Shown piece by piece: positions 5,564 to 8,069 of a stretch of DNA of 64,000 nucleotides. This DNA comes from Ignavibacteria bacterium. GTDB taxonomy: Bacteria > Bacteroidota > Ignavibacteria > Tepidaquicellales > OLB5. The stretch spans positions 62,001 through 126,000 of the forward strand of contig JAFLBX010000002.1 of assembly GCA_017303675.1 (NCBI GenBank). The letters run 5' to 3'. A program made the translations under genes and the position numbers. Below the pieces are notes generated by a model. It searched no databases. It was given only the letters and a program-made list of their open reading frames with translations, and had not been told where the DNA came from. Position 1 is the stretch's first letter. Each line of letters opens with the position of its first letter.

Positions 5564-6406
5564 ATGAGATTTTCCGTAAAATTACTGCTTATTCTTGCTT
5601 TTTTATCAGGTAACCTTTTTGCGCAATTTTCACCTGAGCTAAAGCTTTCTGAAAATAAAAGCTTGCTGAAAAATAAGGAATTTGTTCCTGAACACAAAAA
5701 ACTTGATCTGAATAAGGAGTATAAAGAGAGTTACCAGCTTAAAAAAAGAAAAACCGTCTCTTCGTATTTCGGGGCAGGGTATTCATTTATGATTTTTACA
5801 AATTCTTATATGAGCTCAGCTTTCCCGATTCTGGATACCAGGAACGGAACATTTTTAACTAACATAAATCTGTTTTTTGGATTTTCAATAGCCCAGGCAG
5901 TTACTCTCGAATTTTCTCCAACCATACTATTTACAAGCAATAATAAACAGGTAGATTATGCATTATCATCACCAATGGTAATTAACGGCACTTCTTATAA
6001 TTACGCGCATACGAGCACAAACGGAATTATAGCACTGCCATTGGCTATTAATGTTAGGTTCTTCCCGCTGTTCAAACAAAAAAGCTTTGCAAGGCTGTTT
6101 TTCATTGGCGGTGGTGCAGGTGCGGTTTGGGTAAGAGAAGAAAATGATGTGACTTATAATAATTCACCAAATACATTTTATTATTATAGTGAACCCGGCC
6201 AGAACGGGTTATCAACCAGCCAATGGGCGCCTTTGTTCAGGGTAATTTCAGGGTTTACCGGTACCGGCGGTCAGTTCGGATTCGGTGGTGAGCTTAGTTA
6301 CAACTTTATTCCTTTAAAACAGGACCAGACAAAACCATTTGCTACAAAGTTCGCGAAAGATATGAACAGTGTAGATATAACTTTAAGATTTTACTTCAGC
6401 CTGTAA
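5564..6406 (+). CDS. Putative outer-membrane beta-barrel protein
   Basis: Function not recognised. 280 residues. A signal peptide is clear (residues ~1-20, ending FAQ). After a Lys-rich stretch (~25-60) the chain has alternating polar/aromatic segments, Gly-rich turns and no long hydrophobic helix, which suits a small outer-membrane barrel. The C-terminus (DITLRFYFSL) ends in aromatic residues alternating with polar ones, like the last strand of such barrels. The ATG is set by AGGAG at 5551-5555. It is a single gene, with its own -7 box and a strong terminator after it. Confidence 0.6.
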   Translation: MRFSVKLLLILAFLSGNLFAQFSPELKLSENKSLLKNKEFVPEHKKLDLNKEYKESYQLKKRKTVSSYFGAGYSFMIFTNSYMSSAFPILDTRNGTFLTNINLFFGFSIAQAVTLEFSPTILFTSNNKQVDYALSSPMVINGTSYNYAHTSTNGIIALPLAINVRFFPLFKQKSFARLFFIGGGAGAVWVREENDVTYNNSPNTFYYYSEPGQNGLSTSQWAPLFRVISGFTGTGGQFGFGGELSYNFIPLKQDQTKPFATKFAKDMNSVDITLRFYFSL

Positions 6407-6425
6407 TAAACAATTACTTTTAAAA

Positions 6426-6450
6426 AAAAGCAGCTTAAACAGCTGCTTTT
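6426..6450 (+). terminator. Rho-independent terminator after the 5564 gene
   Basis: Perfect 10-bp stem (AAAAGCAGCT pairing with AGCTGCTTTT), five-base loop, then a T run. Confidence 0.85.
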
Positions 6451-6516
6451 TTTATGTTTATTGATATTAGTTGCCAATAGCGACAAATGTCATAGGAATG
6501 CCCCTGCCTTATTTTG

Positions 6517-6576: not shown

Positions 6577-8016
6577 ATGTTTGGAAAATTGAGATTCATA
6601 TCATCATTTTTACTGTTTTTTATCCTTTTGCCCGGATTAATTTCACAGGAATATATTGTTCTTGGGTGGAATGACCTTGGAATGCATTGTTCTAACCGGG
6701 ACTTTTCTAAAATGGCTGTGCTGCCGCCATACAATAATGTGTTTGCGCAGGTGATAAAAAAACAGCAGGGTTTGTCTCCGCAAATTGTTACATCTGGCTT
6801 TACACTGGAGTATTCCATTCCGGGAAATACTTATTCCATCGGCAAGACCAACTTCTGGAGCTATGCTCAGGTACTGTTCGGCTTGCCAAACCCGCTGCCT
6901 GATAATATCGGGCTGACAGGTAAAGGATTAACCGGAACGATGGATGTTTCCACAAATTATTTCAAGGTGCTTGGAATTCCAAACACACCGTTTGCAGATG
7001 CTGACCTGGTTAATGAAAGGCCGTTCCAGACATTTCACTTAAATGCCAAGCTGAACGGTAATACTGTCGCATTTACAGATAATGTGATACCTGTAAGCAA
7101 TGAAATAGGCTGCTTTCAAAGCGGCTGTCATACAAGCGAGCAGTCCATAAAAGATAACCATGAAAATGTTCCGGGTTTCAGGCAGAACTCCCCGGAGCTT
7201 TGCGCAAGATGCCATGCATCAAATGCATTGGGAACAGTTGGCGACCCTGAGGCGAAACCATTTTCCTTCAGAATTCATGATAAGCATAAATTCATTCAGC
7301 CGGTAAACAGCATTAATACATGTTATAAATGCCATCCCGGACCCAATACTCAATGTTTCAGGGATGTGATGAGATCCGGCAATATGACATGCCAGGATTG
7401 CCACGGAACTATGTCAACCATTGCCAATACAATTGAAACAGGCAGAAGACCCTGGCTTGATGAGCCAAAATGCGGAAGTTCCGGTTGCCACGGCAGCAAT
7501 TACGCTGAAGAGCCTAATAAATTATACAGGGAGTCAAAAGGGCACGGAGGGCTGTTATGTTCATCCTGCCACGGGAGTCCGCATGCGATTTATCCAACAA
7601 CCCAGCCAAATGATAATCTACAGAGCATCAGGCTGCAGGGACATGCAGGCGCTATTAATGACTGTATGGTATGTCATACAGTACCGCCATCAGGTCCGGG
7701 TCCCCACGGTATCACATATATCGGCATAATCAAGATCAACGAAGAAATTCCAACAAAGTACAGCCTGTATCAGAATTATCCTAACCCGTTCAACCCGAAA
7801 ACAAATATTAAATTTGATATTTCGGAAAGAACTTTCCTTACATTAAAAGTTTATGATGCATTGGGCAGGGAAGTTGAAACACTTGCCGAAGGCGATATTT
7901 CACCGGGTTCATACAGTGCCAAATGGGATGCTGAAAGATACAATTCAGGCATTTATTTCTATATCTTAAAGACAAGTAAATATACTTTAACTAAAAAAAT
8001 GATCCTCCTTAAATAG
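6577..8016 (+). CDS. T9SS-exported multihaem c-type cytochrome
   Basis: Probable surface-attached electron-transfer protein. 479 residues. Signal peptide 1-23. An N-terminal domain that I do not recognise (~25-175, starting VLGWNDLGMHC) lacks haem sites. Residues ~179-367 carry five CXXCH sites (CARCH 209, CYKCH 249, CQDCH 272, CSSCH 328, CMVCH 363) and two CX4CH sites (C179-H185, C299-H305), so up to seven covalent haems. Residues ~395-479 are the T9SS sorting tail beginning QNYPNPFNP. The ATG follows AAAGGAG. Haem attachment would occur in the periplasm before T9SS export. Single gene between two terminators; redox partner unknown. Confidence 0.85.
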   Translation: MFGKLRFISSFLLFFILLPGLISQEYIVLGWNDLGMHCSNRDFSKMAVLPPYNNVFAQVIKKQQGLSPQIVTSGFTLEYSIPGNTYSIGKTNFWSYAQVLFGLPNPLPDNIGLTGKGLTGTMDVSTNYFKVLGIPNTPFADADLVNERPFQTFHLNAKLNGNTVAFTDNVIPVSNEIGCFQSGCHTSEQSIKDNHENVPGFRQNSPELCARCHASNALGTVGDPEAKPFSFRIHDKHKFIQPVNSINTCYKCHPGPNTQCFRDVMRSGNMTCQDCHGTMSTIANTIETGRRPWLDEPKCGSSGCHGSNYAEEPNKLYRESKGHGGLLCSSCHGSPHAIYPTTQPNDNLQSIRLQGHAGAINDCMVCHTVPPSGPGPHGITYIGIIKINEEIPTKYSLYQNYPNPFNPKTNIKFDISERTFLTLKVYDALGREVETLAEGDISPGSYSAKWDAERYNSGIYFYILKTSKYTLTKKMILLK

Positions 8017-8037: not shown

Positions 8038-8069
8038 AAAAAGACAGGCTGTTTCAGTCCTGTCTTTTT
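8038..8069. terminator. Bidirectional terminator between convergent genes
   Basis: Perfect 11-bp stem (AAAAAGACAGG with CCTGTCTTTTT) and ten-base loop, with A and T runs on both sides, so it can serve the cytochrome gene (+) and the acyl-CoA dehydrogenase gene (-). Confidence 0.85.

Follow-up and report, generated by a model that had tools for sequence, protein, structure and literature searches.

A conserved seven-haem cytochrome with a type IX secretion tail in an Ignavibacteria bacterium, a predicted redox module of the cell surface

Results

A cytochrome gene with seven haem sites and a C-terminal sorting domain

On the plus strand of the window (the whole stretch of 64,000 nucleotides of an Ignavibacteria bacterium analysed here), an open reading frame encodes a 479-aa protein, whose features and immediate surroundings are listed below, with the basis of each assignment in brackets.

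6423..6453, +, terminator-like hairpin between an upstream barrel gene and the cytochrome gene (hairpin scan)
6577..8016, +, heptahaem c-type cytochrome with a T9SS type A tail (open reading frame, 479 aa, motif counts, family models)
6577..6645, +, putative Sec signal peptide, residues 1-23 (hydrophobic start by eye; the homologues' conserved core starts at residue 24)
6646..7101, +, N-terminal domain, residues 24-175, predicted beta-sandwich of no known family (model and family searches)
6667..6690, +, WNDLGMHC signature, residues 31-38, with candidate ligand H37 and non-haem C38 (alignments)
7111..7131, +, haem site 1, CX4CH, residues 179-185 (motif and conservation)
7201..7215, +, haem site 2, CXXCH, residues 209-213 (motif and conservation)
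7321..7335, +, haem site 3, CXXCH, residues 249-253 (motif and conservation)
7390..7404, +, haem site 4, CXXCH, residues 272-276 (motif and conservation)
7471..7491, +, haem site 5, CX4CH, residues 299-305 (motif and conservation)
7558..7572, +, haem site 6, CXXCH, residues 328-332 (motif and conservation)
7663..7677, +, haem site 7, CXXCH, residues 363-367 (motif and conservation)
7777..8013, +, T9SS type A C-terminal sorting domain, residues 401-479 (PF18962, TIGR04183, CTD fold)
8047..8064, +, terminator-like hairpin just 3' of the cytochrome gene (hairpin scan)

The signal-peptide-like start, as judged by eye, reads MFGKLRFISSFLLFFILLPGLIS, followed by QEY. The seven candidate haem sites that an earlier note on this DNA had proposed stand out clearly, as the five CXXCH and two CX4CH motifs compare with shuffle means of 0.017 and 0.017 (0.03 together; 20,000 shuffles), and residues 268-368 match PF14522 (Cytochrome_C7) above its curated cut-off. 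An AlphaFold model of the full-length protein, built on a 79-sequence alignment, had a mean pLDDT of 89.6. The positions of the terminator-like hairpins that flank the gene suggest a single-gene unit, in a region where the number of hairpins is not above that of shuffles. The upstream gene (5564-6406, plus strand) encodes a 280-aa outer-membrane-barrel-like protein of no known family, which is syntenic with the cytochrome gene within the genus.

The haem sites and additional histidines are conserved among homologues

Among 81 sequences from a peptide-seeded scan, all seven haem sites were kept at 99-100%, as were H37, H195, H234, H237, H323, H336, H377, C38, C260 and M265. Since the peptide WNDLGMHC itself served as a seed, its perfect conservation in this first set is partly a product of the search. 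A second check relied on 29 sequences from whole-genome searches that were obtained without query peptide seeds: here, the haem motifs, five of the extra histidines, C38 and C260 were invariant, H37, H323 and M265 varied, and the signature also appeared as WSESGMHC, WNDLGMSC or WNDIGMKC. At two of the haem sites, some relatives have CXXCH where others have CX4CH. With seven CXXCH or variant sites conserved in both the 81 and the 29 sequences, the protein has the hallmark of a multihaem c-type cytochrome, and the possibility that most Cys-His motifs might prove variable, which would have spoken against the earlier note, did not materialize, all seven being kept in essentially every homologue.

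The five histidines 195, 234, 237, 336 and 377 (almost) never vary in the main family, in the fused subfamily described below or in the unseeded matches, and they suit a role as distal haem ligands. In the fused subfamily, H37 and H323 are lost and M265 is replaced by histidine, for which reason we dropped the view that the alignments establish bis-His coordination of all seven haems; C38 is constant there.

A widespread family with exchangeable C-terminal modules

We scanned the genomes of 84,980 species with the 365-residue core, seeded by query peptides, and found at least 575 relatives; the best 80 of these at least 575 were kept, with 44-88% identity. The core of about 365 aa, comprising the unrecognised N-terminal beta domain and the seven haems, recurs in about ten phyla. 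Its hosts, for some of which the labels are uncertain, include Ignavibacteria, Bacteroidota, Chlorobiota, Calditrichota, Zixibacteria, GN15, Eisenbacteria, Latescibacterota, Gemmatimonadota, Neomarinimicrobiota, Sumerlaeota (BRC1), Desulfobulbaceae/Desulfocapsaceae and Chloroflexota. The cytochrome belongs to a widespread, highly conserved and unnamed family. No relative was found in plasmid records.

A conserved GPH marks the end of the core, after which the C-terminal modules begin. According to labels given by eye (about 20 representatives have model support, and several dockerin or CTD matches lie just under the cut-off), the core is followed by T9SS CTDs in Ignavibacteria, Bacteroidota and Calditrichota, by FlgD/T9SS-like domains in Eisenbacteria, Latescibacterota and Gemmatimonadota, by dockerin-like repeats in Zixibacteria, GN15 and single others, by SLH in one Chloroflexi member, and by a short tail, often ending like YLPLVxR, in Chloroflexota; Desulfobulbaceae and others have no tail at all. 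On the core tree, these labels require at least 13 changes, compared with 36 when shuffled, which points to tails that are clustered yet have been exchanged several times. The T9SS tail is one of several lineage-specific C-terminal modules and not a family-wide trait.

Several relatives depart from this layout. A 1035-aa protein of Zixibacteria (L044:989-4096) has ten CXXCH and four CX4CH motifs, apparently in two tandem cores; two others (L018:3199-5793 and L019:7860-10523) carry Ig-like domains of about 400 aa between the core and the T9SS tail. The short hydrophobic YLPLVxR-like tail of Chloroflexota (L073-L086) is possibly that phylum's own sorting signal.

In a distant subfamily, found in three genomes of the same class, the seven-haem core is part of a fused protein of about 890 aa (L135:6940-9630, L134:7543-10221 and L133:7466-10126), in which it is preceded by an N-terminal multi-TM domain and one class-I haem site (monohaem cytochrome c). 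The fused genes directly follow a conserved gene for a TM protein of 355-357 aa, and a gene for a TM protein of about 147 aa, PsiE-like where scanned, is also found at two of the three loci. The haem part of a fused member matches PF22113 (MtrC/MtrF domains II/IV) with 35.1 bits (cut-off 30), and the fused arrangement suggests that electron transfer into the core may be quinone-linked. We considered cytochrome bd subunit I as an identity for the TM domain and rejected it, as the likeness was seen by eye alone and the domain had no match in Pfam, NCBIfam or PDB sequences.

The N-terminal domain equals the haem domain in conservation

The N-terminal stretch of about 150 residues had been described beforehand as unrecognised, and it remains so in Pfam and NCBIfam: residues 24-175 of the cytochrome gave no match at E-values up to 5, and the tallies for 71 family members (with positions given for the first member alone) contained no family with a plausible role for this domain. 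A profile search of PDB sequences returned one chance-level match (6f0k, E 0.35). Because the Ig-like tail swamped the PDB search of the full-length model, the core was refolded alone; this model had a pLDDT of 87.9, with a beta-rich N-terminal domain mostly above 90. It had no PDB match with Z >= 5 (best Z 4.5), a result that shows neither a new nor an unrelated fold, as the rows mainly covered residues 1-311 and the aligner re-scored the Foldseek list alone.

Mean pairwise identity is 0.53 over residues 24-175, compared with 0.49 over the haem domain without its ligands, and about 29 residues of the N-terminal domain are near-invariant. Given that this domain is as conserved as the haem domain and lies outside any curated family, its conservation argues for a specific function beyond conduction.

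The tail and the genome's secretion machinery match

Residues 401-476 match both PF18962 (40 bits, cut-off 27) and TIGR04183 (40.2 bits, cut-off 23). The predicted tail fold resembles the C-terminal domain of PorU (6za2; Z 9.6, 86 aligned residues, rmsd 2.7), PorZ (5m11; Z 8.9) and the mirolase CTD (8qb1; Z 9.3), although many unrelated Ig-like rows give similar scores. The source genome encodes SprA (910 bits over a joined frame) and PorU (917 bits). The cytochrome therefore combines what is expected of T9SS type A cargo, namely a sorting domain above both cut-offs with the beta-sandwich fold of a CTD, in a genome with SprA and PorU, and the earlier description of a multihaem cytochrome with a complete T9SS tail is upheld on all of these counts. 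Nor is the tail absent or degenerate in related genomes, which would have weakened that description; all eight complete orthologues from the genus keep it intact. The 3.65-Mb source genome has at least about 150 places that match the T9SS tail, so that this tail is a common class of export signal in the organism and not a stray domain; a set of at least about 150 such tails is a large secreted set for a genome of this size.

We also searched for SprA in 50 host genomes. SprA was matched in every one of the 28 whose relative carries a T9SS- or FlgD-like tail, and no such tail occurs in the 13 SprA-negative ones; in a few host genomes, the SprA match is partial and below the cut-off. This concordance is consistent with the tail serving the T9SS and is not independent proof of it, because the two groups of hosts separate mostly along the deepest branch of the tree, which makes lineage a confounder. 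The seven-haem protein is very probably shipped to the cell surface by the type IX secretion machine.

The gene is accessory within its genus

The gene is present in 10 of 13 genomes of the genus (one copy is broken by a contig end). As the three congeneric genomes that lack it are near-complete (97-99%), the gene is accessory. The surrounding gene order is kept within the genus and not beyond it; the neighbours gave no functional clue and none is conserved outside the genus, so that the context names neither a donor nor a substrate.

Other haem-protein genes of the source genome

CXXCH-coding patterns number 362 in the source genome, compared with 170 for a reversed-pattern control, i.e., an excess of about 190. 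One cluster (C1:1863418-1872486, equivalent to L111:7419-16487) encodes an 18-haem protein, a b561-like protein, a 17-haem NapC-like protein, a three-haem protein, an unrecognised 443-aa protein, and proteins with 14 and 6 haems. From its position, we would guess that the 443-aa protein is a porin; the cluster is conduit-like and could serve as the surface electron donor. A second multihaem cytochrome with a T9SS tail (C1:1858114-1860252, minus strand; L111:2115-4253) is encoded next to this cluster on the opposite strand; this 712-aa protein has nine CXXCH motifs and MtrC/F-like and C554-like domains and is unrelated to the seven-haem one. Of 35 good genomes in the order, 27 have a homologue of it, and the T9SS tail was present in all six copies inspected in full, including that of the source genome. 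With two unrelated representatives, T9SS-tailed multihaem cytochromes form a class of cargo in this genome. Genes labelled as NrfHA-like from haem count and size alone lie at C1:452629-454402.

Discussion

Comparison with known systems

Like known T9SS type A cargo (TIGR04183/PF18962), the cytochrome has a Sec start and a C-terminal Ig-like sorting domain and comes from a genome with SprA and PorU; what sets it apart is its passenger, a seven-haem cytochrome. In the available part of its effector table, a T9SS review names proteases, CAZymes, adhesins, S-layer proteins and a haem-uptake protein, and the word cytochrome occurs nowhere in the review (PMC10202324). Multihaem secreted proteins of Bacteroidota have been reported in bulk, and the seven-haem family is not named in the available part of that report (PMC11495043). 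Our search of the open-access literature found no paper that ties the T9SS to multihaem cytochromes.

The protein shares with OmcA/MtrC-type cytochromes (TIGR03507, PF22113) a beta domain followed by a multihaem domain, an expected location at the surface and a weak resemblance to PF22113, but it has a single beta domain, seven haems instead of ten, a T9SS tail and no adjacent porin. It did not match TIGR03507 at E-values up to 5, and 5 of 71 relatives did (best E 1.6e-5). The cytochrome was likewise not among the matches to the DmsE/MtrA decahaem model TIGR03508, which has a cut-off of 192 bits and for which the relatives shown scored about 18-32 bits. The C-terminal haem repeats exceed the c7 cut-off and so resemble cytochrome c7/c3-type repeats (PF14522, PF14537), from which the protein differs in its two CX4CH sites, its seven haems and a conserved N-terminal domain outside those models.

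With porin-cytochrome conduits (MtrCAB, OmbB-OmaB-OmcB), the cytochrome would share the purpose of bringing electrons to the outer surface. In contrast to them, it stands alone: no haem gene adjoins it in the window, genes for a porin or periplasmic partner are not alongside, and a conduit-like cluster is found elsewhere in the genome. The earlier note had proposed T9SS delivery as a route for electron transfer unlike such conduits. The T9SS-tailed cytochrome at its centre stands, whereas the separate electron route is not supported in that form, given that the T9SS moves the protein and not electrons and that the genome has a conduit-like cluster of its own. As the T9SS carries no electrons over the outer membrane, a surface electron donor would still be needed.

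Proposed role and alternatives

On balance, we lean towards a role as an extracellular terminal redox module at the cell surface. In the scheme that we infer for haem loading, secretion, anchoring and the direction, donor and acceptor of the electrons, the protein would be exported by Sec and would receive its seven haems c in the periplasm, as is general in the maturation of c-type cytochromes. Its C-terminal domain would then be the part by which the folded protein is recognised, SprA would provide the passage, and PorU would release the protein or anchor it at the cell surface. Sec export, CTD-guided passage through SprA and processing by PorU are taken from published work on the T9SS (PMC11285876, PMC10994853), and haem attachment at an earlier step would fit with the periplasmic folding of T9SS cargo that precedes its export (PMC11285876). 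At the surface, the seven haems may relay electrons between a surface electron source (the quinol-linked multihaem and conduit-like cluster of the genome is a candidate) and an external partner. The conserved N-terminal beta domain would provide a specific docking or reaction site, and with such a site the protein probably does more than a generic wire would.

Surface multihaem cytochromes usually conduct or store electrons, published work connects Ignavibacteria with Fe(III) reduction and with anodes (PMC7399161; PMC3534657), and the haem part is weakly similar to MtrC/MtrF domains II/IV, as seen with PF22113 in a fused member. A generic wire or capacitor at the surface, which only conducts or stores electrons destined for minerals, humics or partner cells and has a merely structural N-terminal domain, is therefore conceivable; we hold it to be less likely, as a plain wire would have no need for non-haem residues that are unusually conserved across phyla, including the near-invariant ones of the N-terminal domain.

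The protein might also leave its tail unused and work inside the outer membrane with the quinol chain, as a periplasmic cytochrome. In the fused subfamily, the same core is borne by a membrane-anchored and so probably periplasmic protein, and some family members lack a tail; both points speak for this location, but we regard it as unlikely in view of a tail that is complete, CTD-folded, conserved in the genus and swapped elsewhere for other surface-type modules, in a genome with SprA and PorU. HBP35 of P. gingivalis, a T9SS cargo, is a haem-binding protein for haem uptake (PMC10202324), which raises the question of haem storage or uptake in place of a redox function. This we consider very improbable, given that haem is predicted here to be bound covalently through seven c-type motifs, together with conserved extra histidines, and that no haem-uptake genes lie near the cytochrome gene.

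For the whole family, we tentatively propose, as a possibility held with considerable reserve, that the core represents an undescribed, horizontally spread family of extracellular oxidoreductases with the N-terminal beta domain as active or docking site and with export or anchoring tags of each lineage's own, and that T9SS delivery of multihaem cytochromes would then be a general, overlooked part of extracellular electron transfer in Ignavibacteria, Bacteroidota and neighbouring groups. If true, export of cytochromes by the type IX machine would provide the Bacteroidota group with a means of its own for positioning redox proteins outside the cell. The family's conservation over phyla is high enough for use as a marker, and one relative comes from a named isolate, Maribellus sediminis Y2-1-60, in which localisation and function are testable.
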